From NCBI RefSeq assembly GCF_003261175.1, contig NZ_QLNP01000063.1, positions 62,001-126,000 of the forward strand: 64,000 nucleotides of DNA. The letters run 5' to 3'. Below the pieces are notes generated by a model. It saw only the letters and a list, made by a program, of their open reading frames with translations, did not search any database and was not told the origin of the DNA. The DNA comes from Arthrobacter globiformis (GTDB lineage: Bacteria; Actinomycetota; Actinomycetes; Actinomycetales; Micrococcaceae). Shown here piece after piece: positions 2,710 through 34,854 of this stretch. A program made the position numbers and the translations under genes. Positions within the stretch are counted from its first letter, which is position 1. Every line of letters begins with the position of its first letter.

Positions 2710-2738
2710 TTGACAGTGTTCCACGCCACACCTATCTT
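2710..2738 (+). promoter_or_regulatory. Sigma70-type promoter of the MFS transporter at 2891
   Basis: TTGACA (2710-2715), a 17-base spacer and TATCTT (2733-2738) form a near-consensus vegetative promoter. Predicted transcription start is near 2745, inside the first palindromic operator, giving a leader of about 145 bases. Confidence 0.7.
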
Positions 2739-2890: not shown

Positions 2891-4249
2891 GTGTCTCTCC
2901 CAGATACTGAAGCAGTGACAACCCAGGCCCGTTCCCCGGAATCCCGCGGCACCAAGCCGGGCAAGGACGGCGTGCAACGGCGCACCAACGTCCGCTGGAA
3001 GCTGTTCCTGCTGCTGCTCGTCCTGGTCGCCGTCAACTACATCGACCGCGGCTCCATCTCCGTGGCGCTGCCCATCATCCAAAAGGAATTCAACCTCGCC
3101 CCGGAGCTCGTTGGCCTCCTGCTCTCCGCGTTCTTCTGGACCTACGCCCTGATGCAGATCCCGGTCGGTTTGCTGATCGACAAGTTCGGTCCGCGCAAGG
3201 TCATGACCGCCTCGTGCGTGGGCTGGGGCGCCGCCACCGCCGCCTCCGGCATGGCCGGCGGCTTCCTCAGCATGTTCATCGCCCGGCTGGGCATCGGCGT
3301 CACCGAGGCCGGCGTCATGCCGGCCGGCGGCAAGCTGAACGCCATTTGGATGCACAAGTCGGAGCGCGGCCGCGGCGCCACCATTCTGGACGCCGGCGCT
3401 CCCCTCGGCGCCGGCCTGGGCGGCATCCTCATCGCCGGACTCATCGCCGCCACCGGCAGCTGGCGCAGCTCGTTCGTCATCGCCGGAGCCGCCACCGTCC
3501 TCATGGGCCTGGCCGTCTGGTGGTATGTCCGCGACAACCCCCGCCAGCACCGCGCGGTCAACGAGGCCGAGGCCGAGTACATCGAAGCCTCCCATGCCGC
3601 CGAAGACGCCGAGGCCGAACTCGACGGCAGCAAGGGCAAGCGTGCACTGCTCCCCTACCTGAAGTTCCGGTCCTTCTGGGCCATGTGCTTCGGCTGGCTG
3701 GGTTTCAACGGCGTGTTCTACGGCCTGCTCACCTGGGGTCCGCTGTACCTTGCCCAGGCCAAGGGCTTCGACCTGAAAACCATCGGCTGGTCCACCTTCG
3801 TGATCTTCGGCGCCGGTTTTGTCGGCGAGATCCTGGGCGGCACCATTGCCGACAAGTGGCGGGCGTCCGGCGCCTCGGCCAACCGCGTCATGCGGACGCT
3901 GCTGGGAATCTCCAGCGTCGTGGTGGTGGGCGGCCTCATCGGGGTAACCGTAGTCGCGGACCCGACCACCGCCGTCGTCCTTCTCTCCGTGGTGATGTTC
4001 TTCCTCCGCTGGGTGGGCCTGTTCTGGAGCATCCCGTCCATCCTGGGCGGCCGCACCAACGCCGGCGTCCTCGGCGGAGCCATGAATTTCAGCGGCAACA
4101 TCTCCGGGTTCGTCACGCCGATCGCCGTCGGCCTGATCGTCGGTGCCACCGGCTCCTACACCTGGGCGCTGCTCTACTTCGTGGGATCCGCCATCATCAT
4201 GGGCGTCTCCGTGCTCACCCTGAACTACAACAAGCGCCTGCCTGTCTAA
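2891..4249 (+). CDS. MFS transporter, anion:cation symporter (ACS) family
   Basis: A 452-residue polytopic membrane protein with about 12 helices. The first helix region (VNYIDRGSISVALPII) and the loop 2-3 motif DKFGPRK (about residue 96) are typical of the ACS family, which takes up organic anions such as hexuronates, glucarate, tartrate, allantoate and aromatic acids. The GTG start is chosen because AAGGAG lies five bases upstream; an ATG-started frame would remove helix 1. It heads a catabolic cluster and its promoter shares operators with the next transporter. Having ACS and MHS transporters side by side suggests two related substrates, or substrate and intermediate. Confidence 0.85.
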   Translation: MSLPDTEAVTTQARSPESRGTKPGKDGVQRRTNVRWKLFLLLLVLVAVNYIDRGSISVALPIIQKEFNLAPELVGLLLSAFFWTYALMQIPVGLLIDKFGPRKVMTASCVGWGAATAASGMAGGFLSMFIARLGIGVTEAGVMPAGGKLNAIWMHKSERGRGATILDAGAPLGAGLGGILIAGLIAATGSWRSSFVIAGAATVLMGLAVWWYVRDNPRQHRAVNEAEAEYIEASHAAEDAEAELDGSKGKRALLPYLKFRSFWAMCFGWLGFNGVFYGLLTWGPLYLAQAKGFDLKTIGWSTFVIFGAGFVGEILGGTIADKWRASGASANRVMRTLLGISSVVVVGGLIGVTVVADPTTAVVLLSVVMFFLRWVGLFWSIPSILGGRTNAGVLGGAMNFSGNISGFVTPIAVGLIVGATGSYTWALLYFVGSAIIMGVSVLTLNYNKRLPV

Positions 4250-4283
4250 GCCTCCCAAGCCAAGCCGAGCAGCAGTCTCCCGA

Positions 4284-4346
4284 TTTGGGATCCCAAAGCA
4301 TTGACATCAGCCCACCCGCAACTTACCGTCATATTGGGATCCCAAA
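4284..4346 (+). promoter_or_regulatory. Promoter flanked by two GGGATCCC palindromes
   Basis: TTTGGGATCCCAAA (4284-4297) is followed by TTGACA (4301-4306), a 17-base spacer and TACCGT (4324-4329), then by ATTGGGATCCCAAA (4333-4346). One operator sits just upstream of -35 and the other over the predicted start, with centres 49 bases apart (under five helical turns). The arrangement suits looping or cooperative binding by a dimeric repressor. It drives the transporter at 4425 and probably the genes behind it. Confidence 0.75.
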
Positions 4347-4424
4347 CCGGCACTCCGAGGAGAACATCCTCGCCCCACCCCAACACCGGTCCCGTACCCC
4401 CGTCGCATCGCCCAGGAGGGCCAC

Positions 4425-5792
4425 ATGTCGATCAACTCCCAAACCCGAGGTTCCGTGTCCGACGCCAAGCCGAAGGGCGGCGGAAACTCAATGAAGAGGG
4501 TCGTCGCCGCGAGCTTTGTCGGCACCACACTTGAGTACTACGACTTCTTTGCCTACAGCACGGCAGCTTCCATCGTCTTCCCCATCCTGTTTTTCCCCGG
4601 CTCCGAACCCGCCACGGGCCTCCTTCTGGCCCTGGCCACCTACGCGGTCGGCTATGTTGTGCGCCCCTTGGGCGCCGCAATCTTCGGCCACTTCGGCGAC
4701 AAGATTGGCCGCAAGAACGTCCTCGTCACCACATTGCTCCTGATGGGCCTGGCCAGTGCCGCCGTCGGACTCCTTCCCACCTACGAAAACATCGGGGTCT
4801 GGGCTCCGGTCCTGCTGGTCAGCCTGCGCTTCCTGCAGGGCATCGGCATCGGTGGCGAATGGGGCGGCGCCGCCCTCATGGTCACCGAGTCGGACAAGAG
4901 CGGCCGGCGCGGGCTCTTCGGCAGCCTCGTCCAGACAGCCGCGCCGACGGGCCTGCTGCTGGCCACCGGCATCTTCACGCTCATGACCTCGGCGCTGTCC
5001 AAGGAAGCCTTCCTCGCCTGGGGCTGGCGGATCCCGTTCCTGATCAGCTTCGCGCTGGTGGCAATCGGCCTGTACATCCGGCTGAAACTCGCGGAGTCCC
5101 CGATCTTCGAAGAGACGGAGAAGAAGGCTGCGGCGAAGCAGCAGGAGGAAGTCAAGGCTCCTCTCCTGTACGTCTTCAGGCACTACAAGAAGCAGCTGGC
5201 CCTTGCGGTCGGCGCCCGGATCGGCAGTGATATCGCGTTCTACATCTTCGCGCTGTTCGTCCTCGTCTACGGAACCGAACACCTGGGCCTGCCCAAGAGC
5301 CTGGCCCTCGCGGCATCGACGATTTCGGCCGTTGCCCAGATGATCAGCATCCCGCTCTTCGGCGCGCTCTCGGACCGGGTGGGCCGCAGGCCTGTCATGA
5401 TCGGCGGCGCCGTCGGGGGCATTATCTACAGCTTCGTGTTCATCGCGATGCTCAACTCCAAGGACCCGTTCCTGGTGCTCATCGCCCCTGCCATCGGCCT
5501 GGTGATCGTTGCGGCCATGTACGCCCCGGTGGCCTCGTTCATCCCCGAACTGTTCGCCACCAAGGTCCGGTACACCGGCTCCGCCGTGGGCTTCCAGCTC
5601 GCCGGCGTCTTCGGCGGCGGCTTTGCCCCGCTGATCGCCATCCAGCTGATCGTCCTGACCAGCTCCGGATTCGCTGTGGCCGGATATCTTTCCGCCGCGC
5701 TGCTGCTCATGGTGTTCTGCGTCTACATGGCCAAGGAAACGTCCAGGATCACCATGAACGAGGCCGGCAAGTCAGCCGGCATCACGCACTAA
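4425..5792 (+). CDS. MFS transporter, metabolite:H+ symporter (MHS) family
   Basis: A 455-residue transporter with the MHS signature TTLEYYDFFAYSTAA in helix 1 (about residue 34), the GHFGDKIGRKN loop motif (about 88) and the second-half counterpart GALSDRVGRRP. Family members (ShiA, KgtP, ProP, CitA) carry small carboxylates or betaines by proton symport. The ATG follows AGGAGG at seven-base spacing. The amidase starts a few bases after its stop, so the two are co-transcribed. The neighbouring hydrolases suggest uptake of a cyclic or open-chain amide acid, but no substrate residues are diagnostic. Confidence 0.87.
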   Translation: MSINSQTRGSVSDAKPKGGGNSMKRVVAASFVGTTLEYYDFFAYSTAASIVFPILFFPGSEPATGLLLALATYAVGYVVRPLGAAIFGHFGDKIGRKNVLVTTLLLMGLASAAVGLLPTYENIGVWAPVLLVSLRFLQGIGIGGEWGGAALMVTESDKSGRRGLFGSLVQTAAPTGLLLATGIFTLMTSALSKEAFLAWGWRIPFLISFALVAIGLYIRLKLAESPIFEETEKKAAAKQQEEVKAPLLYVFRHYKKQLALAVGARIGSDIAFYIFALFVLVYGTEHLGLPKSLALAASTISAVAQMISIPLFGALSDRVGRRPVMIGGAVGGIIYSFVFIAMLNSKDPFLVLIAPAIGLVIVAAMYAPVASFIPELFATKVRYTGSAVGFQLAGVFGGGFAPLIAIQLIVLTSSGFAVAGYLSAALLLMVFCVYMAKETSRITMNEAGKSAGITH

Positions 5793-5797
5793 GGATC

Positions 5798-7315
5798 ATG
5801 GACATGAACAACACCGCCCCGGCTTCGACGCACGCTTCCACGGACAGGGACTCCATTGACAGGGAGCAGCTAACCCGGCTTTCCATGACCGAATGGGCGA
5901 CAGCCCTGCGGGAGGGCCGCCTGACAGCCATTGAGTGCCTGGAAGTGCACCTCGAGCGGATAGCCGAAGCAAACCCCCGCCTGAATGCCATCGTCACCCT
6001 CAACCCGCTGGCCGCTGAGGAAGCCGCCGCCGCGGACCGGGCTGCCGCCGAGGGCCGATCGCTGGGCCCGTTGCACGGCGTGCCGTTCACGGTGAAAGAC
6101 ACCCTCGCAACGAAGGGCCTGCGGACCACGGCAGGAAGCCCCCTGTTGGGGGATTACGTTCCGGAACAGTCCGCGACGGCGGTCCGCCGCCTGCGGGAGG
6201 CCGGAGCGGTGTTGTTGGGCAAGACCAACTGTTCGGAGTTTGCGGTGGAAACACACACCCGCAACCCGCTTTTCGGGGACACCTGGAGCCCCTGGGGCCC
6301 CGGCCTTACGTCCGGCGGTTCCACCGGGGGCGACAGCGCGGCCGTGGCCTCCGGCATGAGCGCTTTCGGGCTCGGCACGGACTTCGGCGGGTCCATCCGC
6401 TGGCCGGCCCACTGCACGGGGCTGGCGAGCCTGCGGCCCACGGTAGGACTGGTGCCGGAGACGGGGCTCCTCCCGTACTTACCGCCGGCGGCCGGAGAAA
6501 GCCTCCCCGTACCCAACTCCATGTCTGCCCTGCACCGTCTCGGCACCGTGGCCTGGCTGGCCCGGAGCGTGGACGATCTGGGCGTGCTGCTCGGGATCCT
6601 CGCCGGTCCGGACGGTGGGGACCCTTCCACTGTCCCCGTACCGCTGGGCGGCCCGGTGGAAACACTGGACGGGATCAGCTGCGCCTGGTTCGAGGACGAG
6701 GGCACGCATCCGGTCCGGGAGGATCTGGTGGCTGCCGTCCGGCGGGCCGCCGCAACCCTCAACGGCCTTGGCGTTCCGACGACGCACGGCAGGCCGCCGG
6801 GCCTCGAGCGGGCGGCGGCCGCCTTTGTGGCCCTTCGCACTGCTGAGGGAATGCCCGAAGTGGTGGAGCTTGCCTCCGGGCGCGAGGACCAGCTGGGCAG
6901 CAACCTCCGCAACACCTTGCTGGGCGCAGAACCCGTCTCGGTGGCGGACTACCGCAAGGCCGCCGCGGAGCGGGATGCGATCCGCGCGCAGGTGCTCGGG
7001 TTCATGGAACAGCACAACATCCTGCTGCTCCCTGTGGCCAGCGTGCCGGCGTCGGATCCCCGGACCGGTTCCTTCACCGTCAGCGGCCAGGACATTCCCT
7101 GGACGGAGCTGGGGTCCTGCTGCCGGGCCATCAGCATCCTTGGCTTTCCGGTGGCGGTTGTGCCGTGCGGGCTTTCCCGTGAAGGCCTCCCGGTTGGTGT
7201 CCAGGTGGTGGGCCGGCCGTACCGCGATCGCGAAGTACTCGCTGTTGCTGCGGCCTTGGAACGGGAGTTTGGCCGCTTCAGCCCTCCGTCACCCAGTCCC
7301 AGGTCAGAGGACTGA
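5798..7315 (+). CDS. Amidase signature (AS) family hydrolase
   Basis: A 505-residue amidase-signature enzyme that hydrolyses an amide to acid and ammonia through a Ser-cisSer-Lys triad. The Lys is in TVKDTLATKG (about 99), the cis-Ser region is GGSTGGDSAAVASG (about 172; canonical GGSSGG with the second Ser replaced by Thr) and the nucleophile Ser is in GTDFGGSIRWPA (about 198). The start could be ATG 5798 or ATG 5804, the latter better spaced from AAGGA. In this cluster it could play the N-carbamoylase or half-amidase role that follows the ring-opening hydrolase, since no M20-type carbamoylase is present. This is inference. Confidence 0.85.
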   Translation: MDMNNTAPASTHASTDRDSIDREQLTRLSMTEWATALREGRLTAIECLEVHLERIAEANPRLNAIVTLNPLAAEEAAAADRAAAEGRSLGPLHGVPFTVKDTLATKGLRTTAGSPLLGDYVPEQSATAVRRLREAGAVLLGKTNCSEFAVETHTRNPLFGDTWSPWGPGLTSGGSTGGDSAAVASGMSAFGLGTDFGGSIRWPAHCTGLASLRPTVGLVPETGLLPYLPPAAGESLPVPNSMSALHRLGTVAWLARSVDDLGVLLGILAGPDGGDPSTVPVPLGGPVETLDGISCAWFEDEGTHPVREDLVAAVRRAAATLNGLGVPTTHGRPPGLERAAAAFVALRTAEGMPEVVELASGREDQLGSNLRNTLLGAEPVSVADYRKAAAERDAIRAQVLGFMEQHNILLLPVASVPASDPRTGSFTVSGQDIPWTELGSCCRAISILGFPVAVVPCGLSREGLPVGVQVVGRPYRDREVLAVAAALEREFGRFSPPSPSPRSED

Positions 7316-7372
7316 GCCGTGATGGATGCCGCCGAGCACATAGAGTCACTAAAAACCACGAATGGAGCAAAG

Positions 7373-8056
7373 ATGCTGACCGCAGATCAAACGCCGGCCA
7401 CGGACCGCCCCCTCCGCGAGACTGTCCGGGACACGCTCCGCACCAGGATCTTCGAAGGCCACTACGCTCCCGGCGCCCGGCTCGTGGAACGCGACCTTGC
7501 CGCGGAGTTCAACGTCTCCCGGCTTCCCGTCCGCGAGGCGCTCCGGATGCTGCGGCAGGAAGGCCTGCTCAGCGACCGCGGAGCGAGGGGCGCAGAGGTC
7601 AGCTCGCTCAGCCCCAAGGACGTGGAGGACCTCTTCGACGTCCGCCAGTCACTGGAGGTGCTCGCCTGCCGGCTCGTCGCGGTCCGGGCAACGCCGGAGG
7701 ACCTTGGCCTCCTCGAAGGACTACTGGAGGAGGCCGAACGGTGCCTCGCCAAAGGCGCCGTCATGGAGGCCCACCGGGCCAACAGCGATTTCCATGACGC
7801 CATCACCCGTATCGCGGACAACGGCTTCCTCAAGGCCGCGCTGGAGCCGTTGCAGGGCCGGATGCACTGGCTGTTCCGGCACGTCAGCGACCTGCCCGAA
7901 CTGATCCAGGAACACCGGGACCTGTACGAGGCCATCGCCAGCGGCGATCCGGACCGTGCCGCTGCCCAGTCGGCGTCGCACATCGGCAAATACCGCGAAC
8001 AGTTCCCCGACGACTTCCAGAAAACCGAACCAGCCCTGCACCGGAAGAAAAAATGA
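7373..8056 (+). CDS. GntR family (FCD type) transcriptional regulator
   Basis: A 227-residue regulator with an N-terminal winged helix (LRETVRDTLRTRIFEG ... FNVSRLPVREALRML, about residues 10-75) and a C-terminal helical FCD ligand domain (DLFDVRQSLEVLACRLV onward). FCD-GntR proteins are dimers that usually repress catabolic operons until an acid intermediate binds. I chose ATG 7373 because GGAG lies at good spacing; GTG 7319 or ATG 7322 in the same frame would add 17-18 residues. Its stop overlaps the start of the next gene (ATGA). It is the only regulator in the cluster, so it probably reads the GGGATCCC palindromes. Confidence 0.88.
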   Translation: MLTADQTPATDRPLRETVRDTLRTRIFEGHYAPGARLVERDLAAEFNVSRLPVREALRMLRQEGLLSDRGARGAEVSSLSPKDVEDLFDVRQSLEVLACRLVAVRATPEDLGLLEGLLEEAERCLAKGAVMEAHRANSDFHDAITRIADNGFLKAALEPLQGRMHWLFRHVSDLPELIQEHRDLYEAIASGDPDRAAAQSASHIGKYREQFPDDFQKTEPALHRKKK

Positions 8057-8838
8057 AACTCCTTGTCATCAACCCCAACATCAGCGACGACGTCACGGCG
8101 CTCATCGAATCTGAAGCCTTGAGGTCCGCCTCCCCCGGCACCAGCCTGGCGGTCCGCACGGCCGGCCACGGAGTGGAGTACATCGAAACCCGCTTTGAAT
8201 CACTCATCGCTGCGGGCGCCGTCGCCGAGATCATCGCCGAACACACCGCCGGCTTGGCCCGGGAACCTATTGACGGCGTCGTGGTGGCGGCCTTCGGGGA
8301 TCCGGGAATGCCGGCCCTGAAGGAACTCGCCGACGTGCCCGTCATCGGGATCACCGAGGCAGCCCTCTGCGCCGCGGCGCTGCAGGGGCACCGGTTCTCC
8401 ATCATTGCCATCTCGGACCGGATCCGCCCGTGGTACCTGGACTGCGTGGAGCGGTTCGGCCTCGGCGGCCGGCTGGCGTCCATCCGCTCCATCAACGAGA
8501 CCCTGAAGGCCATCGGCTCGGTGCAGCAGGACTTCAAGGAAACCCTTCTGGCACTCAGCCGGCAGGCCGTCGCGGAAGACGGGGCCGACGTCGTCATCCT
8601 CGCCGGAGCGCCGCTGGCGGGGCTGGCCCGCGAACTCCGGGCGCAGATCCCCGTCCCCGTCGTGGACGGCATCTCCGCCGGCATCCGGATGGCCGAAGCC
8701 GTGGTGGGGCTTCAGTCCGGCCCGCACCGTGCCGGCGCGTTCGCTCCGCCGCCGGTCAAGGCCCGCAAGGGCCTGTCCGAAAATCTCGACGCCGCCCTGA
8801 CCGCCGCCCAGACGGCGTCGAACGCCGCCGCCAAGTAA
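8053..8838 (+). CDS. Hydantoin/allantoin racemase homologue lacking both catalytic Cys
   Basis: A 261-residue protein of the Asp/Glu/hydantoin racemase superfamily, aligned well by its start (MKLLVINPN), the FGDPG motif and HRFSIIAISDR. In characterised hydantoin racemases two cysteines act as acid and base, in a CFGDPG motif and a GCAGM motif. Here these read AAFGDPG (Ala80) and LAGAPLAG (Gly185), so both are absent while the motif surroundings are kept. It overlaps the regulator gene by four bases and precedes the hydantoinase. A classical two-base racemase mechanism is unlikely; a different reaction in the same fold, or a loss of function, are the alternatives. Confidence 0.8.
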   Translation: MKLLVINPNISDDVTALIESEALRSASPGTSLAVRTAGHGVEYIETRFESLIAAGAVAEIIAEHTAGLAREPIDGVVVAAFGDPGMPALKELADVPVIGITEAALCAAALQGHRFSIIAISDRIRPWYLDCVERFGLGGRLASIRSINETLKAIGSVQQDFKETLLALSRQAVAEDGADVVILAGAPLAGLARELRAQIPVPVVDGISAGIRMAEAVVGLQSGPHRAGAFAPPPVKARKGLSENLDAALTAAQTASNAAAK

Positions 8839-8871
8839 GCCCAACATACTTTCCCCGTAAGGAAGACAACG

Positions 8872-10293
8872 ATGTCCCGCATACCCGAACTCGTCATCGC
8901 CAACGGAACCGTGGTCAACAGTTTTGGCCGCCGGCACGCCCATGTCGTGGTGGTGGACGGCAAGATCAGCCAGCTCATTGATGCCGCAGAACCAGCCCCC
9001 GCCGCCGTCCGCACCGTCGACGCGACCGGCCAGCTGGTGATCCCCGGCGGTGTGGACGGGCACTGCCACGTGGCCCAGGTGACCGGCCGGTTCCGCACCC
9101 TGGACGATTACCGGACCACCTCAACCGCTGCCCTGTGGGGCGGCACCACCACCATCATCGACTTCGGCATCCCCCGCGACGCCCGCGAAACCCCGCTCGA
9201 GGCCGTGCTCAACAAGAAGGAGCTGGCGCAGCAATCCCGCTGCGACGTCGCTCTCCACGGGTCCGTGATCAGCTGGGACGAGACCGTTCCATGGCAGCTG
9301 GAGCAGCTTGCCGCCGAGGGCGTCCGCTCGGTGAAGATGTACACCACCAACCGCGGCACCACCATGGCGGATGGGGACACCATCCTGAAGGTCATGCGCG
9401 AAATGGTCCGGCTGGACGGCCTCACCTACATCCACGCCGAACACGACCCAATCGTCACCGACTGCACCCAGCAGCACGCCGACGACGGACGGATCGGCAT
9501 CGAGCACCTGCACCGCACCCGCCCCGAGCTTGCCGAGGAAATTTCGGTCAAGGAAACCCTGGCCATGGCCCAGTACACGAAGGCCCCGGTGTACTTCGTG
9601 CACCAGTCCACCCCCGCGGCGGTCGACCTGGTCACCGACGCCCGTGCCCGCGGCCAGGAGGCCTACTCGGAAACGTGCCCGCACTACCTCACGCTCGACG
9701 ACACCGTATACGGCTCGGCCTTCCCGGAGTGGTACGCCTGCTGCCCGCCGATGCGCAACCCGGAGACGGTCGCGGCGCTTAAGGAGCGGCTGGCCGGCGG
9801 CGCCATCCACACCGTGGCCTCGGACCATTCCTGCTACGACCTGACCCAGAAGCGGGAACGCACGGATGACATCCGCGCCATGCCACACGGCCTCCCGGGT
9901 GTGGAAACGCGCATGCCCGTCACGTTCACGGTGATGGCCGAATCCGGCAGCAGCGTGGAGGACTTCGTGGAGGTCTTCTCGGCCGGACCGGCGCGCGTCA
10001 ACGCCCTGCCCGGCAAGGGCGCTATCGCCGAGGGCTTCGACGCGGACCTGGTGCTCTTCGATCCATCAGAACAGCGGACCGTGGACGGCGGGGCGCTGCA
10101 CATGGGAACCGACTTCTCACCCTTCGACGGCCGCGCCTTGGCCGGCTGGCCCGCCGTCGTGGTTTCCGCAGGCCGCGTGGTACTGGACCGTGATGGCTTC
10201 CACGATCCGGGGGCCGTGGGACGCTTCGTGGCCCGGAACGGGTTCCGCGAACACCTTGCCGCCACTGCCGACCTGTCCCCCGCGACCCTCTAG
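8872..10293 (+). CDS. Dihydropyrimidinase/hydantoinase-type amidohydrolase
   Basis: A 473-residue cyclic-amide hydrolase with all ligands for a binuclear metal site: His-x-His in DGHCHV (about 64-66), the Lys that becomes carboxylated in SVKMYTT (about 155), His in IHAEH, His in VHQST and Asp in ASDHS. Family members (D-hydantoinase, dihydropyrimidinase, allantoinase, imidase) open five- or six-membered cyclic ureides or imides. AAGGAAG precedes the ATG. It lies between two racemase-superfamily genes and follows the amidase, which suggests ring opening followed by amide hydrolysis. Which ring is not visible. Confidence 0.88.
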   Translation: MSRIPELVIANGTVVNSFGRRHAHVVVVDGKISQLIDAAEPAPAAVRTVDATGQLVIPGGVDGHCHVAQVTGRFRTLDDYRTTSTAALWGGTTTIIDFGIPRDARETPLEAVLNKKELAQQSRCDVALHGSVISWDETVPWQLEQLAAEGVRSVKMYTTNRGTTMADGDTILKVMREMVRLDGLTYIHAEHDPIVTDCTQQHADDGRIGIEHLHRTRPELAEEISVKETLAMAQYTKAPVYFVHQSTPAAVDLVTDARARGQEAYSETCPHYLTLDDTVYGSAFPEWYACCPPMRNPETVAALKERLAGGAIHTVASDHSCYDLTQKRERTDDIRAMPHGLPGVETRMPVTFTVMAESGSSVEDFVEVFSAGPARVNALPGKGAIAEGFDADLVLFDPSEQRTVDGGALHMGTDFSPFDGRALAGWPAVVVSAGRVVLDRDGFHDPGAVGRFVARNGFREHLAATADLSPATL

Positions 10294-10302
10294 GAGCACG
10301 CC

Positions 10303-11049
10303 ATGACTTCTCCCAACCGTCCCGCATCATCTGTCCGGCCAACCCGGATCGGCATGGTCGTGCCGTCCTCCAACATTTGCCTGGAGCCGCAGAGCTACCG
10401 CATCCTGGGCGACCGGACGGACGTCACCATCCACTTCACCCGGATCCCGGTGACACGGATCGCCCTGGACGATTCATCGGACAGGCAGTTCGACCCCGCC
10501 GTCATGCGCGAGGCCGCCAGGCTGCTGGCGACGGCGGACGTGGACGTGATCGCCTGGAACGGCACCTCGGGATCGTGGCTGGGTTCCGGGCACGACCGCG
10601 AGCTCGTCCTCGAAATCACCGACGCCACCGGCATCCCCGCCACGACGTCCACCCTCGCGTACCTGGAGGCGTTCCGGGCCTTCGGCACTGAGCGGATCGG
10701 GCTGTTCACGCCGTACACGGAGGACGTCAACGAGGCCATCATCCGGTCCTATGAGCGGGACGGCATCAAAACCGTCAGCCACCGCTGCCTGGGCCTGAGC
10801 GACAACGAGTCCTTCGGCCGGGTCACGGACGATGAAATGCGTCCCGGCTCGCTGGAGCTCGCTGCCGACGCCCCGGACGCGCTGATCTACCTCTGCACCA
10901 ACCTGTACGGCGCCAACATCGCGGCCGAAATCGAGGCGGGCACCGGCGTTCCGGTGCTGGATTCGGTGGCCGTCACGCTGTGGCACTGCCTGAAACTTGC
11001 CGGCTCCCCCTTGCTCGCACCAAGGTGGGGCAGGCTCCTCGGGGACTGA
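10303..11049 (+). CDS. Arylmalonate decarboxylase / maleate isomerase-like protein
   Basis: A 248-residue protein of the Asp/Glu racemase superfamily, closest by pattern to arylmalonate decarboxylase and maleate cis-trans isomerase. The start IGMVVPSSN fits both. At the first active-site position it has Gly-Thr-Ser (87-89, WNGTSGSW) rather than Cys, and at the second it has Cys198 (LCTNL). Gly-Thr-Ser plus one late Cys is the arrangement in arylmalonate decarboxylase, whereas racemases and maleate isomerase use two cysteines. RBS AGGAGCACGCC precedes the ATG ten bases after the hydantoinase. A cofactor-free decarboxylation of a malonate-type product is plausible but unproven. Confidence 0.75.
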   Translation: MTSPNRPASSVRPTRIGMVVPSSNICLEPQSYRILGDRTDVTIHFTRIPVTRIALDDSSDRQFDPAVMREAARLLATADVDVIAWNGTSGSWLGSGHDRELVLEITDATGIPATTSTLAYLEAFRAFGTERIGLFTPYTEDVNEAIIRSYERDGIKTVSHRCLGLSDNESFGRVTDDEMRPGSLELAADAPDALIYLCTNLYGANIAAEIEAGTGVPVLDSVAVTLWHCLKLAGSPLLAPRWGRLLGD

Positions 11050-17469: not shown

Positions 17470-19017
17470 TTAGGACAGCACGGGCTCGAGATCATTCTTC
17501 TCGTCAACGATAGGGATGTTCTTGGGAGCTGCGGCCCTGACGAACCTTGGTCCGGCCGGGCCATACGCGTCTGCCGGTTCCGGGAAGAGCCAGAGCACCG
17601 CGGGGTAAAGCACCGCAGCCAGGCCAATGGAAATGGGAATGCTCAGGTCTACTCCCGCGGCGAGATTGCCGAGGGCACCGACGAACTGGTTCGGAACGTT
17701 CACGAACATGATTCCCATGACTGCTGCGAAGATCCAGACGCCCATCGCACGCCAGTTCCACCCTCGGTTGAACCAGTACCGGCCGCCGACCTGGCGGCGG
17801 TTGAAGACCTGGAGGGAGTCGGCGTCGTACCAGCCCCGCCGCGTCACGTACCCAATCATCATCATGATCATCCACGGAGCGGTGCAGGTGATGATGAGCA
17901 CCGCGAATGTGGAGATGCTCTGCACAATGTTAAAGGCGAAGCGGCCCACATAAATGAAGACAATGGCGATGAACCCGATGAACAACGTGGCCTGGACGCG
18001 CGAGAACCGGGGAAAGACGCTGGAGAAGTCAAGACCTGTTCCGTAAAGCGCCGTGGTGCCCGTGGACATGCCGCCCACCAGGGCAATGAGGCACACCGGC
18101 AGGAAGTACCACGCGGGGGAAACCGCCAGAAGCCCGCCCACATAGTCAGAGTTCTCGAAGAACGCTGGCGCCTCAGTGGCAATGATGGTGGCCGTGACCA
18201 GCCCGAAGCCAAACGGCACGAGGGTGGCCACCTGGGCGAGGAAGGCAGCAGCCATGACCTTTCGCTTTGGTGTCTCAGCCGGAATGTACCGGGACCAGTC
18301 ACCTAGGAACGCGCCAAAGGAGATGGGGTTGGACATGACGATCAGTGCAGATCCTATGAAGGATGGCCAGAACAGGGCGCTGGTGGCGGCGTCCGCCCCC
18401 TGCCCGAACGTTCCGGCGTAGGACGGGTCAAACGCACCCGCAAACGCAACGATGCCGAGCAGGAACAGCAGGGACGCAGCTACCACCGCGACCTTATTGA
18501 CCCAGAGCATGAAGCGGAACCCATAGATGCACACAGTAAGGATGAGAACAGCAAAGACGCCGTAGGCGAGGCTTAACGTCACCGCGTTTTGGGGCAGGCC
18601 GATCAGGCGGTTCGCGCCCCCTACCAGCGCGTCCCCTGAACTCCACACAGAGATGGAGAAGAACGCGAACGCCGTCAGGAGTGACAAGAAGGATCCCACA
18701 ACCCGGCCGTGCACGCCCAGATGCCCGGACGACGAAACAGCATTGTTCATTCCGTTGGTCGGACCAAAAACAGCCATTGGGCAAAGTATCAGGCCGCCAA
18801 CCACGACGCCCAGGACCGTGGCCAGCAGCGCGTCCTTGAAGGACAACCCGAAGAGGATGGGGAACGATCCCAGGACCACCGTGGCAAATGTGTTTGCGCC
18901 GCCAAATACCAGACGGAAGAGGTCCAGCGGTTTAGCGGTCCTGTCGGTGGCAGGAATCGGTTCGATGCCGTGCTTTTCGACTTCGGTCACGGCAGGGGCT
19001 TTGAAATCTTGTGTCAT
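17470..19017 (-). CDS. NCS1 family nucleobase/allantoin-type permease
   Basis: A 515-residue, 12-helix permease of the nucleobase:cation-symport-1 family (CodB, Mhp1, PucI type). Diagnostic parts are the N-terminal LVFGGANTFATVVLGSFP segment, the middle SNPISFGAFLGDWSRYIP and the late YVTRRGWYDADSLQVF. Substrates in this family include cytosine, uracil, hydantoins, allantoin and thiamine. Its ATG overlaps the stop of the upstream NTF2-like gene by four bases (19014-19017), so the two are translationally coupled. There is no hydantoinase next to it, but one occurs at 8872 in the same window. Confidence 0.87.
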   Translation of the reverse strand: MTQDFKAPAVTEVEKHGIEPIPATDRTAKPLDLFRLVFGGANTFATVVLGSFPILFGLSFKDALLATVLGVVVGGLILCPMAVFGPTNGMNNAVSSSGHLGVHGRVVGSFLSLLTAFAFFSISVWSSGDALVGGANRLIGLPQNAVTLSLAYGVFAVLILTVCIYGFRFMLWVNKVAVVAASLLFLLGIVAFAGAFDPSYAGTFGQGADAATSALFWPSFIGSALIVMSNPISFGAFLGDWSRYIPAETPKRKVMAAAFLAQVATLVPFGFGLVTATIIATEAPAFFENSDYVGGLLAVSPAWYFLPVCLIALVGGMSTGTTALYGTGLDFSSVFPRFSRVQATLFIGFIAIVFIYVGRFAFNIVQSISTFAVLIITCTAPWMIMMMIGYVTRRGWYDADSLQVFNRRQVGGRYWFNRGWNWRAMGVWIFAAVMGIMFVNVPNQFVGALGNLAAGVDLSIPISIGLAAVLYPAVLWLFPEPADAYGPAGPRFVRAAAPKNIPIVDEKNDLEPVLS

Positions 19018-19427
19018 GAGGTTGCCTTCGGGCTAACCGGCGCCGGAGAAAGGTGCTCGTGAATGGCCAGCAGGTTGCCAGGCTCCGTCCTGGTGAAGAT
19101 GATGGTCTCCCTCTCGTGAAGTGTCCCTTTTGTGCCAGCCACGTCGATGACGGTTTTGACATCATGGCTGAACACGGCGCATGGGCCGGCGATCCGGATG
19201 TGCGCATTGGAACTGGCGCATTCTGCGACCCGCCAACCATCCTCGAGCCAGCCCTGCCACAGGGCGCGGTATTCCCCGCGCGAACCCAAACGGTCCGATT
19301 CGGAATGGAAGACGAAGGTCGCGTCAGGCGCGAAGCAGTCGAAGTAGTCGTCAGTGTCGGTGGCCGCGAAGGCGGTCATCAGCCGCTGCGCTGCTGCCTC
19401 AACCTCGGCGATGGTTATTAGGTCCAC
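19014..19427 (-). CDS. NTF2/SnoaL-like small protein
   Basis: A 137-residue single-domain protein of the SnoaL/NTF2 cone fold: a helical start (IAEVEAAAQRLMTAFAATDTDDYFDCFAPDATFVFH) followed by strands. It may be a small enzyme or ligand-binding protein. The GTG start is assumed. Four-base overlap with the NCS1 permease suggests it handles the imported compound. Function otherwise unknown. Confidence 0.72.
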   Translation of the reverse strand: MDLITIAEVEAAAQRLMTAFAATDTDDYFDCFAPDATFVFHSESDRLGSRGEYRALWQGWLEDGWRVAECASSNAHIRIAGPCAVFSHDVKTVIDVAGTKGTLHERETIIFTRTEPGNLLAIHEHLSPAPVSPKATS

Positions 19428-24082: not shown

Positions 24083-24922
24083 CTATCGCCCGCTGGAGAA
24101 GTCCGACGAAATTCGCTCTGCCGTGGCCACGATTTCCTTCCGCACGGACTCGAGGTAGGCCTCGCGGTCCGGTTTGGCGGCCACAGACTGTGCCTGCAGC
24201 GAGACGTTGACGGCGGCCACCACCTTCGGACCGTGATAAACAGGCGCGGCCACGGACATCAGCCCCAGTTCGAGCTCCTGGTCCAAGAGGCACCAGCCCT
24301 GAGCCCGGACCTTGTCCAGGACGGCAAGCAGGTCCTTCACCGTGCCAATCGCGCGTGGAGTGAGCGGCTTGATCTCCGCCGCGGCCAGGTAATCCTTCAG
24401 CTGCTCCGGCGGGAGCCCCGCGAGCAGCACCCTGCCCATCGACGTCGCATAGGCGGGAAACCTGGTGCCCACGGTGATGCCGATGGTCATGATCCGGCGC
24501 GTGGTGACCCTGGCGATGTAGGCGATGTCCGTTCCGTCCAGCACCGCCGCCGACGTCGACTCTCCCAGCTTCAGGGACAGCTCCTCCAGGTGCGGCTGGG
24601 CCAGCTGCGGCAGGGAGAGGCCTGAAAGGTAGGCGTAGCCGAGCTGCAGCACCTGGGCCGTAAGCGCGAAAGTCTTGCCGTCGGTCCGAACGTAGCCGAG
24701 CTCCACCAGCGTGTGCAGGAATCGCCGGGCCGTGGCGCGCGTGAGATCCGTGCGGGCAGCCACCTCGGTGAGCGTCATGTCGGCATGCTCGGTGTCGAAC
24801 GCGCGGATCACCGCGAGCCCGCGCGCGAGCGACTGCACATACTGGTCGCTCGCCGCCGGTGTCGCGCCGTCTTTCGGCTGGCGGCCCGCCCGAGGCGTGG
24901 TCGCTGCTGCTGCGTCGGTCAT
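24083..24922 (-). CDS. IclR family regulator (PcaR-like)
   Basis: A 279-residue IclR regulator: HTH at about residues 25-80 (LARGLAVIRAFDTEHADMTLTEVAART) and a C-terminal effector domain (GRVLLAGLPPE onward). It lies on the same strand directly after pcaJ, and its relatives beside pca genes (PcaR/PcaU/PobR) activate beta-ketoadipate genes in response to pathway acids. ATG 24922 is chosen with AGGA upstream; the longer frame would start inside the palindromic repeat. It is probably the local pca regulator, with the IclR at 34925 serving the quinate/shikimate end. Confidence 0.87.
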   Translation of the reverse strand: MTDAAAATTPRAGRQPKDGATPAASDQYVQSLARGLAVIRAFDTEHADMTLTEVAARTDLTRATARRFLHTLVELGYVRTDGKTFALTAQVLQLGYAYLSGLSLPQLAQPHLEELSLKLGESTSAAVLDGTDIAYIARVTTRRIMTIGITVGTRFPAYATSMGRVLLAGLPPEQLKDYLAAAEIKPLTPRAIGTVKDLLAVLDKVRAQGWCLLDQELELGLMSVAAPVYHGPKVVAAVNVSLQAQSVAAKPDREAYLESVRKEIVATAERISSDFSSGR

Positions 24923-24975
24923 GGTTACCAATCCTAATCGGCGCGAACGGACACTTCCGGCCCCGCCACCACTCA

Positions 24976-25036
24976 CGCGAACTGGCAGCTGATGCCCTCA
25001 AAACCCGGGTTTGCGGTCATTTGCTGCCAGTTCGCG
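24976..25036. repeat. 61-base imperfect palindrome (REP-like)
   Basis: Both ends read CGCGAACTGGCAGC and its complement, 14 perfect base pairs. Inward the arms continue with ATG..C/GCAAA similarity and meet at CCCGGG. It can fold into one hairpin of about 28 pairs. It lies in the gap between pcaJ and the IclR gene. There is no T-tract, so it is not a standard terminator; a dispersed intergenic palindrome is the alternative. No second copy was found in this window. Confidence 0.75.
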
Positions 25037-25053
25037 CTGGGAGGGGGAAAGCG

Positions 25054-25737
25054 TTAGTGCTCGACGGCGGGGGCGGCCGTGAGGGGGACGGGGACGAGTT
25101 TCTGGAGGTCTTCGAGGGTGCAGCCGAAGGTTTCGCGGACGCGGACGCCGTCGGGGCCGGTGAGGAAGACAGCCTTGTCGGTGTAGACGCGGGTCACGCA
25201 GCCCACGCCGGTGAGCGGGTAGGTGCAGGCCTCCACGATCTTGGAGGCACCTTCGCGGGTCAGGAGAGTCATCATCACGAAGACGTCCTTGGCTCCGGTG
25301 GCCAGGTCCATCGCGCCGCCGACGGCGGGGATGGCGTCCGGTGCCCCGGTGTGCCAGTTGGCGAGGTCGCCGGTGGCGGAAACCTGGAACGCGCCGAGGA
25401 CGCAGATGTCCAGGTGCCCGCCGCGCATGATCGCGAAGGAGTCGGCGTGGTGGAAGTAGGACGCGCCGGGGAGTTCGGTGACGGGGATCTTGCCGGCGTT
25501 GATGAGGTCACCGTCGATCTGGTCGCCGGTTGCCACCGGGCCCATGCCGAGCATGCCGTTCTCGGTGTGGAGGGTGATGTTCTGCTCGGGCTTGAGGTAG
25601 TTCGACACCAGGGTGGGCTGGCCGATGCCCAGGTTCACGAAGGATCCCGGCGCGATGTCCCGCGCCACCATGCGGGCGAGGTCGTCGCGGCCCAGCGGCG
25701 TTTCGGACGTCTGGATGCTCGTCTCTACAAGGCTCAT
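25054..25737 (-). CDS. pcaJ: 3-oxoadipate CoA-transferase subunit B
   Basis: A 227-residue CoA-transferase beta subunit. With PcaI it moves CoA from succinyl-CoA to 3-oxoadipate. The catalytic Glu is in the LHTENGMLGMG motif (about 60), and NLGIGQPTLV near the start fits family I transferases. It starts one base after the pcaI stop codon. It is the last structural gene of the pca operon. Confidence 0.93.
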   Translation of the reverse strand: MSLVETSIQTSETPLGRDDLARMVARDIAPGSFVNLGIGQPTLVSNYLKPEQNITLHTENGMLGMGPVATGDQIDGDLINAGKIPVTELPGASYFHHADSFAIMRGGHLDICVLGAFQVSATGDLANWHTGAPDAIPAVGGAMDLATGAKDVFVMMTLLTREGASKIVEACTYPLTGVGCVTRVYTDKAVFLTGPDGVRVRETFGCTLEDLQKLVPVPLTAAPAVEH

Positions 25738-25738
25738 C

Positions 25739-26446
25739 TCAGGCCACCTGTCCTTTCAGGTCCGCGCCGGCGGCGGCAGCACCGCTGGAATCAATACGGA
25801 CAATGCTGGTGACGTAAATGCCGGGCGTCACGATGTTCTCCGGATCCAGCGCACCCGTGGGCACGATTTCGGACACCTGCACGATGGTGTGCTTGGCGGC
25901 GGCGGCCATGATCGGCCCGAAGTTCCGGGCAGTCTTGCGGTAGACCAGGTTACCGACGCCGTCGGCCTTCAGCGCCTTGATCAGGGCGACGTCGGCGTGG
26001 ATGGGGGTCTCGAACACCTGCCCACGGCCGTCGATGATGCGGGTTTCCTTGCCCTCGGCCAGCATGGTGCCGTACCCGGTGGGGGTGAAAAACCCGCCGA
26101 TGCCGGCGCCGGCGGCGCGGATGCGTTCGGCCAGGTTGCCCTGCGGCACCAGCTCCAGCTCGATCTGCCCGGCCTTGTACTTCGCGTCGAAGTGCCAGGA
26201 GTCGGACTGCCGCGGGAAGGAACAGATCATCTTGCGGACCCGGCCTTCCTTGATCAGCAGCGCCAGGCCCTGGTCGCCCTGGCCGGCGTTGTTGTTCACC
26301 ACGGTCAGGTCCGTGGCGCCGCACTCGAGCAGCGCGTCAATCAGTTCGAACGGCTGCCCGGCATTGCCGAACCCGCCGATCATCACCGTGGACCCGTCCT
26401 TGACGCCGGCCACAGCCTCCTGGACCGAATCTACAAAGCTCAGCAT
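25739..26446 (-). CDS. pcaI: 3-oxoadipate CoA-transferase subunit A
   Basis: A 235-residue alpha subunit with the oxyanion/CoA-binding motif MIGGFGNAGQPFELI (about 21-36) and GGFFTPTGYGT. It forms the heteromeric transferase with PcaJ, making 3-oxoadipyl-CoA. It begins four bases after the pcaF stop and is part of the pca polycistron. Confidence 0.93.
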   Translation of the reverse strand: MLSFVDSVQEAVAGVKDGSTVMIGGFGNAGQPFELIDALLECGATDLTVVNNNAGQGDQGLALLIKEGRVRKMICSFPRQSDSWHFDAKYKAGQIELELVPQGNLAERIRAAGAGIGGFFTPTGYGTMLAEGKETRIIDGRGQVFETPIHADVALIKALKADGVGNLVYRKTARNFGPIMAAAAKHTIVQVSEIVPTGALDPENIVTPGIYVTSIVRIDSSGAAAAGADLKGQVA

Positions 26447-26450
26447 TCGC

Positions 26451-27662
26451 CTACGCCTTTCCGTTTGCAGGGGAGGAAGCAGTTACGTTTTCAAGCACCA
26501 CAGCGAGGCCCTGGCCCACGCCGATGCAGATCGCCGCGACACCCCAGCGCTCTCCGGACACCTGGAGGGACCGGGCGAGGGTGCCCAGGATGCGGGTGCC
26601 GGATGCGCCGAGCGGGTGGCCCATCGCGATCGCGCCGCCGTGCCGGTTCACGATTGCGGGGTCGATGCCCCAGGCGTTGATGCAGGCCAGGGACTGCGCG
26701 GCGAACGCTTCGTTAAGTTCGACGGCGCCCACCTGGTCCCAGCCGATGCCCGCCTTCGCAAGGGCCTTGTTTGCCGCCTCCACGGGGGCGAAGCCGAAGT
26801 ACTGCGGGTCGTTGCCGTGCGCACCGCGCCCGGCGATCCGGGCCAGCGGCTCCAGGCCCAGGATCGAGGACGCGTTCTCGGACCCGACCCACGCCGCGGA
26901 CGCGCCATCTGACAGCGGGGAGGCGTTGCCGGCCGTGACGGTGCCGTCCTCGGTGCGGAACACGGTCTTGAGCCCGGCCAGCTTTTCGGCCGAGGAGCCG
27001 GCGCGGATGCCCTCGTCCCGGACCAGCTCGGTGCCCGGAACCGGAGCCACGAGGTTGTCGTAGAAACCCTCGTCCCAGGCGGCCGCGGCCAGGTTGTGGG
27101 AGTTGGCGGAGAATTCGTCCTGCTGTTCGCGGGTCACCCCGTACTTCTCGCGGAGCCGTTCGGTCGCCTCGCCCAGGGAGATGGTCCACTCCTTGGGCAT
27201 GGCCTTGTTCACCAGGCGCCAGCCCAGCGTGGTGGACGCCAGGGTCATGTCCCCGGCCGGGTAGGGCTTCTCGGTCTTGGGCAGCACCCAGGGGGCGCGG
27301 CTCATGGATTCGGCGCCGCCGATCAGCATGACCTCGGCGTCGCCAGCGTTGACCTGGCGGGAGGCGATGATCGCCGCGTCCAGCGACGAACCGCACAGCC
27401 GGTTCACAGTCGTGCCCGGGATCGAGACCGGAAGGCCAGCCAACAGCGTTCCCATCCGGGCGATGTTGCGGTTCTCCTCGCCGGCGCCGTTGGCGTTGCC
27501 GAAGACCACCTCGTCGATGCGCTCGACGTCGAGCTGCGGGGCGCGCTTCACGGATTCGCGGATCACGTGGGCGGCGAGGTCGTCCGGGCGGACGGCGGCG
27601 AGGCCGGAGCCGAACTTGCCGAAGGGCGTCCTCACGGCGTCGTAGATGAAGGCCTGGTTCAT
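26451..27662 (-). CDS. pcaF: 3-oxoadipyl-CoA thiolase
   Basis: A 403-residue thiolase that cleaves 3-oxoadipyl-CoA to succinyl-CoA and acetyl-CoA. Visible motifs are the nucleophilic Cys in VNRLCGSSLDAA (about 90), NRHGGAIAMGHPLGASG and the late Cys in VAAICIGVGQG. ATG 27662 is chosen: it overlaps the pcaC stop by four bases and gives the family start MNQAFIYDAVRTPFGKFG. A longer frame upstream is only a shadow of pcaC. Confidence 0.94.
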   Translation of the reverse strand: MNQAFIYDAVRTPFGKFGSGLAAVRPDDLAAHVIRESVKRAPQLDVERIDEVVFGNANGAGEENRNIARMGTLLAGLPVSIPGTTVNRLCGSSLDAAIIASRQVNAGDAEVMLIGGAESMSRAPWVLPKTEKPYPAGDMTLASTTLGWRLVNKAMPKEWTISLGEATERLREKYGVTREQQDEFSANSHNLAAAAWDEGFYDNLVAPVPGTELVRDEGIRAGSSAEKLAGLKTVFRTEDGTVTAGNASPLSDGASAAWVGSENASSILGLEPLARIAGRGAHGNDPQYFGFAPVEAANKALAKAGIGWDQVGAVELNEAFAAQSLACINAWGIDPAIVNRHGGAIAMGHPLGASGTRILGTLARSLQVSGERWGVAAICIGVGQGLAVVLENVTASSPANGKA

Positions 27663-28099
27663 GGCGTGCTGTCCATTTCTTTGAAGACCTGCTGGGCGGT
27701 CTTGAAGGCGGTGTTGGCGGAAGGAACTCCGCAGTAGATGGCGGTCTGCAGCAGGATCTCTTTGATCTCGTCCCTGCTCAGCCCGTTGGTGATGGCCGCG
27801 CGGATGTGCATGGCCAGTTCTTCCCAGTGTCCGTGCGCCACCATCGCGGTGATGGTGACGGCGGAGCGCATCTGGCGCGGCAGGCCCGGACGGGTCCAGA
27901 TGCCGCCCCACGCGATGCGGGTGATCATGTCCTGGAAGTCCTCGGTGAAGGCATCCTTTTTGGCGTTCGCCCGGTCCACGTGCGCGTCGCCGAGCACTTC
28001 GCGCCGGACCACCATGCCGCCGTCGTAAATCTCCTGGCTGGTGGCGTCCGGCTGAACCACCCCGTTGCGCTGGCTGCCGGTAACTTCAGCGCCGCTCAC
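27659..28099 (-). CDS. pcaC: 4-carboxymuconolactone decarboxylase
   Basis: A 146-residue AhpD-like protein; it decarboxylates 4-carboxymuconolactone to 3-oxoadipate enol-lactone. The family motifs YDGGMVVRREVLGDAHV, ITRIAWGGIWTRPGL and EILLQTAIYCGVPSAN are present in order. Unlike in some actinobacteria it is not fused to pcaD. Four-base overlaps on both sides couple it to pcaD and pcaF. Confidence 0.95.
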   Translation of the reverse strand: MSGAEVTGSQRNGVVQPDATSQEIYDGGMVVRREVLGDAHVDRANAKKDAFTEDFQDMITRIAWGGIWTRPGLPRQMRSAVTITAMVAHGHWEELAMHIRAAITNGLSRDEIKEILLQTAIYCGVPSANTAFKTAQQVFKEMDSTP

Positions 28100-28914
28100 T
28101 TGGCAGCTCCCCGGGATTCAGTCCAGGAAATCAGGCTCCGCATCAGCTCGGCCACGTGGGCCGGCGCCTCGGCGGGCGCCAGGTGCGCCACGCCTTCCAG
28201 CGTGGCTGCGGAGGCGGTGCCTCCACCCGCGGTGATTCCGGCGGCCACCTCTTCGGCGACCGACGGCGGGGCGACGCCGTCCAGCGCACCCGCCACCACC
28301 TGCGTCGGGACAGTGATGCTGCCGAGCTGGTTACGCACATCGAAGGCGGCCAGGGCCTCGCAGCAGAAGGCGTAGCTGAAGCGGTCGGCGTCGCGCAGGG
28401 AGTGCAGGAGCCGGCTGCTGAGTTCCGGTTCGCGGTCCATGAACCCGGGCGCGAACCAGCGTTCGGCGGAGCCCTGGATCATCACGGGAGTGCCTTGGCT
28501 GCGGACGGTCTCGGCGCGTTCCAGCCAGCCCTCGGGGGTGCCAAGCTTGGCGCCGGAGCACTGCACGGAGAGGCTCTTCAGCCGGTCGGCGTGCTTGATG
28601 CCCAGCTGCAGGCCGGTGGCCCCACCCAGGGAAACGCCGGCGTAGTGGAATTTCTCGCCGGGGGCGATCGAATCCACGAGTTCGACGACGGCGTCCGCCA
28701 GGTCGGCGACGCTGAACGTTTCGGCGGCGGCGGGAGAGACGCCGTGGCCGGGCAGGTCCCAGGCGATGACGTCGAGATCGTTGCCCAGGAGCGAGCCGAC
28801 CTGCGCCCACAGCACCGAGGAGGTGCCGAGCGAGGGCCCGACGATCAGGAGCGGTTTGTCCCCCAGCGTGCGCTGGGGGGAAAGCAGCACTGCCTTGACT
28901 GCTGGTTTAGCCAC
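28096..28914 (-). CDS. pcaD: 3-oxoadipate enol-lactonase
   Basis: A 272-residue alpha/beta hydrolase that converts 3-oxoadipate enol-lactone to 3-oxoadipate. The catalytic triad is Ser in AGVSLGGATG, Asp in AGALDGVAP and His in EGVAHLAP. GTG 28914 is chosen, with GGAG six bases upstream and an eight-base overlap with the end of pcaB; a longer frame would run deep into pcaB. Its stop overlaps the pcaC start. Confidence 0.92.
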   Translation of the reverse strand: MAKPAVKAVLLSPQRTLGDKPLLIVGPSLGTSSVLWAQVGSLLGNDLDVIAWDLPGHGVSPAAAETFSVADLADAVVELVDSIAPGEKFHYAGVSLGGATGLQLGIKHADRLKSLSVQCSGAKLGTPEGWLERAETVRSQGTPVMIQGSAERWFAPGFMDREPELSSRLLHSLRDADRFSYAFCCEALAAFDVRNQLGSITVPTQVVAGALDGVAPPSVAEEVAAGITAGGGTASAATLEGVAHLAPAEAPAHVAELMRSLISWTESRGAAK

Positions 28915-31924: not shown

Positions 31925-31982
31925 AGCAGCCTCCTTTCAATCTGTGGTTGGGCAAATCTTTTGTGGTTTGGGCGGTGGGTGG

Positions 31983-34765: not shown

Positions 34766-34854
34766 GCGTGCGGCTCCTTTGACAACGGCACTCGGCCGGC
34801 TCGGGCGCCTGCAGCGCCCCGTGCTGGCCGGGTGATACGGATAACAATACAACA

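Follow-up and report, generated by a model that had tools for sequence, protein, structure and literature searches.

The seven genes considered here lie near the start of a 64,000-nucleotide stretch of Arthrobacter globiformis DNA (contig NZ_QLNP01000063.1, positions 62,001 to 126,000; hereafter the window) and share one strand (Table 1). They encode two transporters (ACS and MHS), an amidase (AMI), a GntR/FCD-type regulator, a protein with the fold of allantoin and hydantoin racemases (RAC), a hydantoinase-type cyclic amidohydrolase (HYD) and a protein of the maleate-isomerase/arylmalonate decarboxylase (AMDase) fold (AMD). Five of these genes recur together and are linked to an operator of their own; we put at about even the chance that they constitute a dedicated, self-contained, repressible operon for the import and degradation of a small, probably anionic, cyclic amide or ureide.

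The open reading frames (ORFs) and profile matches agree with the positions in an initial annotation of this DNA, which confirms all seven genes and their placement. By their coordinates, MHS and AMI are separated by 5 bases, AMI and GntR by 3, RAC and HYD by 33 and HYD and AMD by 9, and the GntR and RAC ORFs overlap by 4 bases. No carbamoylase was found among the seven genes using Pfam and NCBIfam profiles; two genes above the M20 carbamoylase cut-off sit elsewhere in the genome, which also has a urease outside the operon. The locus had been described as a non-standard hydantoin locus, and its two racemase-fold proteins and the lack of a carbamoylase among the seven genes bear this out. Known hyu operons encode a hydantoin racemase, a hydantoinase and a carbamoylase (PMC3546935; papers are cited by PMC number and, unless the main text is named, for excerpts). 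The present locus resembles them in having a racemase-fold gene adjoining a hydantoinase-type cyclic amidohydrolase, but it differs in the missing carbamoylase, in a RAC without both cysteines, in the polar lid of HYD and in an extra maleate-isomerase/AMDase-type gene, present in 80 of 80 loci that were themselves fetched by that gene.

Table 1. Genes, promoters and operator copies of the locus, with positions in the window
Feature	Position	Strand	Basis
Whole seven-gene set	2891-11049	+	ORF list
ACS, MFS transporter, closest to organic-anion (galactonate/phosphoglycerate) type	2891-4249	+	MFS_1; TIGR00893 251 bits, under cut-off 395
MHS, MFS metabolite/H+ symporter, optional cassette	4425-5792	+	MFS_1; TIGR00883 431.8 bits vs cut-off 443
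AMI, amidase-signature amidase, optional cassette	5798-7315	+	Amidase PF01425, 291 bits
GntR/FCD-type regulator	7319-8056	+	GntR PF00392 and FCD PF07729
RAC, allantoin/hydantoin-racemase fold without catalytic Cys pair	8053-8838	+	Asp_Glu_race PF01177, 148 bits
HYD, cyclic amidohydrolase, hydantoinase type, polar lid	8872-10293	+	Amidohydro_1; nearest D-hydantoinase TIGR02033
AMD, maleate-isomerase/AMDase fold, single Cys (C198), Gly87 for the other Cys	10303-11049	+	Amdase PF17645, 103 bits; also PF01177
Likely operon promoter: TTGACA 2710-2715, 17-base spacer, TATCTT 2733-2738	2710-2738	+	Read by eye
Operator palindrome TTTGGGATCCCAAA	2742-2755	.	Upstream of ACS, 3' of promoter
Imperfect second operator copy CGGGATCCCAAA	2757-2768	.	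Follows TTTGGGATCCCAAA
Operator copy 5' of MHS-AMI cassette	4285-4296	.	Exact core match
Likely cassette promoter: TTGACA 4301-4306, 17-base spacer, TACCGT 4324-4329, operators either side	4301-4329	+	Read by eye
Second cassette operator copy	4334-4345	.	Exact core match

A conserved core and an optional cassette

Conservation was assessed in the best 80 of 175 AMD relatives, taken with flanks of up to 10 kb, a gene counting as present if it lay on the same strand and was at least 55% identical. HYD and AMD were found in all 80 loci, GntR and RAC in 79 each and ACS in 77, with a single 5.4 kb contig (L012) among the misses for GntR, RAC and ACS alike. The order of the genes is kept across the 80 loci, which answers the question of conservation in relatives that the initial annotation had raised. 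As these loci had been chosen through AMD, RAC and AMD were also searched separately in 395 genomes of the family. AMD is present in 75 of them (E up to 1e-70), and RAC orthologues (76 places, with E no higher than 1.8e-90) in 74, all of which lie within the 75 that carry AMD; the next RAC match, at 4.5e-39 and 37% identity, was excluded, and a looser search at 1e-20 matches 167 of the 395. A RAC start lies within 3 kb at 75 of the 77 AMD places, the other two (contig C14 of G096 and contig C13 of G056) having no RAC on the same contig. Judged by these sequence comparisons, five genes make up the conserved unit: ACS, the GntR/FCD regulator, RAC, HYD and AMD. The operon is not rare, RAC and AMD occurring together in 74 of the 395 family genomes sampled. 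Among 396 genomes sampled across the phylum the module was found at E 1e-50 only in the source genome; loci nevertheless exist in Amycolatopsis and Nocardia, so that its occurrence outside the family appears sporadic. Among the 40 largest flanking families, none beyond the seven genes is common to the Amycolatopsis or Nocardia loci. One flanking family common to Sinomonas runs antisense to GntR-RAC and appears spurious.

MHS and AMI, by comparison, are found in only eight of the 80 loci. Two loci (L006 and L007) share the flanks of the window, namely an aldo-keto reductase (AKR), YegS and a DHDPS family gene, and lack MHS-AMI; in cassette-free loci the aligned ends of ACS and GntR lie 42-150 bases apart. 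Because close relatives with these flanks lack it, the core is complete without the cassette, which comes and goes. The proposal that an amidase-signature amidase replaces the carbamoylase is not supported by this distribution: no amidase was found in 72 of the 80 loci, and we reject it as a carbamoylase substitute for the core (one of the 72, L012, is the short contig, and another, L082, has a 48% identical amidase on the opposite strand). Where AMI does occur, residues K100, S175 and S199 are kept in nine of nine sequences, and these we take to be the Ser-cisSer-Lys triad of the amidase-signature family. AMI orthologues (E up to 1e-120) occupy nine places in eight of the 395 family genomes, all nine less than 7 kb from RAC when compared by eye. 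Given this proximity and the two copies of the locus operator upstream, the cassette, though optional, most likely belongs to the private regulon of the operon.

The operator and the regulator

A palindrome, TTTGGGATCCCAAA, stands between the likely operon promoter and ACS and is followed by an imperfect copy, CGGGATCCCAAA. Nine-base words of TTTGGGATCCCAAA recur in 77 of 78 regions 5' of ACS (the window and 77 loci), and TTGACAGTG is found in 64 of the 78. Its 12-base core, TTGGGATCCCAA, is expected 0.10 times in the window but has three copies there, one before ACS and two flanking the TTGACA element of the cassette. These are also the only three exact sites in the 4.88 Mb genome, in which the reversed control has none; the search of the whole genome for the exact core thus uncovered no sites beyond the cluster and no further pathway genes. 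A permease of the cytosine/purine/allantoin type (PF02133) and a short ORF immediately 5' of it on the same strand lie at 17470-19427, some 6.4 kb away from the operon; none of the three operator sites falls there.

The linkage holds across the sampled loci. Of 115 exact core sites in the 80 loci (1.56 Mb), 110 lie at most 400 bases 5' of ACS or MHS; three others are in the AKR-ACS intergenic region (L005-L007), one precedes GntR (L082) and one lies 796 bases 5' of ACS (L060). All eight cassette-bearing loci have two operator sites before MHS, and the scan gave no exact core site in L012 or L021. At the level of the genus, the 14-mer is present in 107 of 199 genomes and the reversed control in 10. 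Among the 74 genomes of known RAC status, the 14-mer occurs in 42 of the 44 with RAC (the two without an exact match are G217 and G377) and in none of the 30 without it, an association with p = 1e-18 when relatedness is ignored. Among the sites listed, 31 in genomes of known status sit 2.3-6.1 kb from RAC. This pattern suggests that TTTGGGATCCCAAA is probably bound by the GntR regulator.

Active-site residues of RAC, HYD and AMD

RAC is nearest to the allantoin racemases (KpAllR and Pseudomonas fluorescens AllR; PDB 3qvj, 5lfd) in both sequence and fold, but it lacks their two catalytic cysteines. Cys79 and Cys184 of KpAllR are replaced by Ala and Gly in the alignment, within the motifs AAFGDPG and AGAPLAG. 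None of 90 aligned RAC sequences of at least 40% identity has Cys at either site (sequences with stops, odd length or less than 70% query coverage were dropped from all residue counts), and the label of a hydantoin racemase, under which the protein had been listed, is not supported. These proteins form one clade that spans Actinobacteria and Proteobacteria, apart from 11 paralogues that retain only the second Cys. On contig 61 of the same genome (L149) there is a separate allantoin-racemase-like gene in which the second Cys is kept and the first site reads AGYGEHG.

The loss of the cysteines bears on two alternatives. The first is ordinary hydantoin or allantoin breakdown, with RAC as racemase, HYD as hydantoinase and the carbamoylase encoded elsewhere; it would fit the kinship of RAC to allantoin racemases, that of HYD to D-hydantoinase and the two M20 genes above cut-off outside the locus. 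We give it little probability, since the KpAllR cysteines are absent from all 90 sequences and since replacing either Cys by Ser in a fungal relative, OpaE, leaves 4.8% (C90S) or no more than 0.3% (C199S) of the activity (PMC12661438). The same genome moreover has a separate racemase-like gene with the second Cys and no exact operator core outside the locus, and this breakdown route offers no role for AMD. The second alternative is that RAC is catalytically dead and has become a ligand-binding protein or a partner of AMD or HYD, as a preserved fold without both catalytic Cys might suggest. This, too, seems improbable: the Cys-less motifs are preserved across classes, and 24 Actinobacterial sequences all share residues such as Y43, R47, D83, E102, S121, R123 and W127, a weak argument given that these are 74-94% identical.

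HYD falls below the cut-off of its nearest profile, D-hydantoinase (TIGR02033, 356 bits against 393). Residues H64, H66, K155, H188, H244 and D318, which we take to be the metal ligands including the carboxylated Lys, are present in 76 of 76 sequences; the metal site is kept. His339 occupies the place of what is, in presumed numbering, Asn337. The lid over the substrate side chain is different: in a Bacillus hydantoinase (BsHYD) it is hydrophobic and consists of Met63, Leu65, Phe152, Tyr155 and Phe159 (PMC9863593). At these positions, counted from the HxH motif and the Lys rather than from a structure, HYD has Gln69, Thr71, Tyr157, Asn160 and Thr164, in 76 of 76 sequences (75 for the first two, owing to one gap), and so lacks the hydrophobic lid of D-hydantoinases and dihydropyrimidinases. 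Escherichia coli allantoinase likewise has a polar residue, Thr151, at the place of Tyr155 (PMC9863593). We infer that the substrate of HYD may carry a small, polar or charged side chain. A 47% identical relative of HYD is found on plasmid pYJN5-2 of Paenarthrobacter sp. YJN-5 (L119) beside an MFS transporter, an NAD(P)-dependent oxidoreductase and an SDR gene; no RAC or AMD match was found in that stretch.

AMD falls short of the cut-offs of both its nearest profiles. Its best NCBIfam match is EutA of ectoine utilisation (TIGR02990), yet the score of 124.5 bits is far under the cut-off of 318, and no ectoine-family gene was found among the seven genes by Pfam and NCBIfam profiles; against AMDase (NF052327) it scores 89.5 bits, under the cut-off of 225. 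G87 and C198, each kept in 99 of 100 aligned sequences, reproduce the Gly74/Cys188 pattern of AMDase (EC 4.1.1.76; PDB 3dg9, 2vlb), and T88, S89 and Y138 correspond to its Thr75, Ser76 and Tyr126. AMD nonetheless departs from AMDase at Gly189 of the dioxyanion hole, which is Thr199, at Val156, which is Asn168 in 100 of 100 sequences, and in other motifs. The AMDase pocket comprises Leu40, Val43, Tyr48, Val156 and Met159; at Val156 the hydrophobic character is lost. The arylmalonate-decarboxylase label of the initial annotation is not supported: the Gly/Cys pattern is shared, but Asn stands for Val156 and Thr for Gly189. In comparison with maleate cis-trans isomerase (PDB 2xed, 4fq7), AMD has Gly87 opposite the first Cys of 4fq7 and keeps only the second site, as Cys198, so that the two-Cys arrangement is missing, whereas N24, Y138 and N168, all in 100 of 100 sequences, align with the Asn, Tyr and Asn that presumably hold the carboxylate in that enzyme. 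The AMD model is slightly nearer to maleate isomerase than to AMDase. A further amide-type cluster, on contig 29 of the same genome (L150, 186000-205000), combines an amidase-like gene with a pair of genes resembling AMD, of which one has Cys at each site; a weak M20 match, under cut-off, lies near it.

These residues can be set against two further routes. In one, the ring would bear a carboxylate beside the opened carbonyl, as in a hydantoin-5-carboxylate such as alloxanate, or be a barbiturate; AMD would decarboxylate the resulting malonate derivative, and RAC or an amidase would free urea and a C2/C3 acid. This would account for a decarboxylase-like protein after a ring-opening enzyme; AMD has the single-Cys pattern of AMDase and the equivalents of Thr75, Ser76 and Tyr126, and on a Defluviimonas plasmid the module lies near genes for hydroxyisourate hydrolase and OHCU decarboxylase. 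We regard it as unlikely: such purine neighbours occur in one plasmid only, AMD has Asn168 and Thr199 in place of Val156 and Gly189, and decarboxylation by AMDase depends on the hydrophobic pocket (PMC12576825, PMC4996985). AMDase-annotated proteins without that pocket have been held unlikely to use arylmalonates, which was confirmed with one protein (PMC4996985). In the other route a cyclic imide resembling maleimide or succinimide would be opened to a half-amide, deamidated by the amidase and isomerised from cis to trans by AMD to give fumarate. It is a distinctly doubtful proposition, as maleate isomerase requires a nucleophilic Cys and a second Cys (PMC12576825), and the nucleophilic site is Gly87 in 99 of 100 AMD sequences; structure 2xed, a Cys194 mutant by its title, still holds the covalent intermediate, which indicates the first Cys. 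Most loci, in addition, have no amidase for the half-amide, and RAC would be left without a role.

A proposed route and the module in other bacteria

Starting from the gene content, co-conservation, operator linkage and residue losses documented above, we infer import, ring opening and repression as the better-founded parts of the proposed operon. The symporter ACS would import the cyclic amide or ureide and HYD would open the ring by metal-dependent amide hydrolysis to give an open-chain acid, and transcription would probably be held down by the GntR protein at TTTGGGATCCCAAA as long as no inducer is bound. What AMD and RAC catalyse, like the identity of the substrate, is a guess. AMD might handle the open-chain acid through its lone acid/base Cys198 and a maleate-isomerase-like carboxylate site, its chemistry likely passing through an enediolate (proton shift, elimination or loss of CO2) and not through two-Cys addition. 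RAC may act on a related intermediate without using cysteine, most likely by a C-N cleavage that releases urea or ammonia, in which case a carbamoylase would not be required; this step is a guess prompted by a regulon without carbamoylase and a urease encoded elsewhere. Where present, the amidase and the second transporter would feed linear amides or half-amides into the same route. The broader proposal, of a carbamoylase-free route for ureides or cyclic amides in Actinobacteria and Proteobacteria in which a Cys-free RAC clade cleaves C-N bonds and a single-Cys AMD clade carries out enediolate chemistry, is more tentative and stands somewhat below an even chance.

Modules of other bacteria, seen in plasmid and megaplasmid records, show which parts of this scheme travel together. 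In Cupriavidus metallidurans CH34 a GntR gene (31% identity) faces ACS (53%), AMD (47%), HYD (32%) and RAC (58%), and an ACS homologue of 51-53% identity is present in four Betaproteobacterial modules. Among the best 40 of 353 plasmid records with RAC, all 19 records of at least 40% identity have AMD within 10 kb, as judged by eye. The module of Paraburkholderia largidicola has an additional DUF3830 gene, for which no match was found in the open-access literature, and in Klebsiella oxytoca the module comes with an ABC transporter, FAH, a pair of SDR-type genes and one of the hydroxyisobutyrate-dehydrogenase type; rearranged modules occur in Diaphorobacter, Methylobacterium, Salipiger and Defluviimonas. 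Overall, the Proteobacterial neighbours vary (ABC, TRAP, an SDR pair, FAH, class V aminotransferase, DUF3830 and UbiD) and give no single answer as to the substrate. Two rhizobia have the order RAC-amidase-AMD with no HYD match in the stretch; the amidase-signature amidase between RAC and AMD suggests that the amide-opening enzyme may vary while RAC and AMD stay.

Several observations weigh against the dedicated operon and the route proposed for it. HYD shares only some 30% identity with the HYDs of Proteobacterial modules, nine of which retain the usual Tyr and Asn, so that substrates may differ between the groups. Eight plasmid stretches (L124-L131) hold an AMD homologue with no RAC match, and on a plasmid of Allorhizobium pseudoryzae (L136) two adjacent Cys-less RACs stand between an amidase and HYD with no AMD match. 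The anionic character of the substrate is read from the transporter family alone, the binding of TTTGGGATCCCAAA by GntR from linkage, and RAC may be catalytically dead or serve in binding. Lone operator sites, finally, prove little when the reversed control 14-mer itself turns up in 10 of the 199 genus genomes.

The families involved are known; the combination, the Cys-less clade with its single-Cys partner and the dedicated operator were not met with in the open-access papers searched. A 2016 survey counted 63 AMDases, all Proteobacterial, and gave the natural substrate of AMDase as unidentified (PMC4996985); its main text mentions neither dihydropyrimidinase nor Arthrobacter. No description of the cluster was found in the open-access literature searched (supplements excluded), nor in the excerpts of PMC4016543 and PMC6015842, in keeping with the initial annotation, which had put it forward as the best candidate for an undescribed pathway in the window. 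In this locus, gene order and a private operator tie an AMDase-like protein to two others, a ring-opening hydrolase and a protein of the racemase fold that lacks the residues for racemisation. If the chemistry proves to be new, a fold that has been widely studied would gain further reactions, and soil ecology a further nutrient source.

About 13 kb from the operon, at 24083-37323, lies an apparent quinate/shikimate-protocatechuate degradation cluster. It has genes for an IclR regulator, a CoA transferase, a thiolase, an alpha/beta hydrolase, two proteins of the protocatechuate 3,4-dioxygenase kind, a TIM-barrel/HPPD-like fusion and a shikimate dehydrogenase, together with an ORF at 36004 resembling an MFS transporter, as judged by the start of its sequence only.

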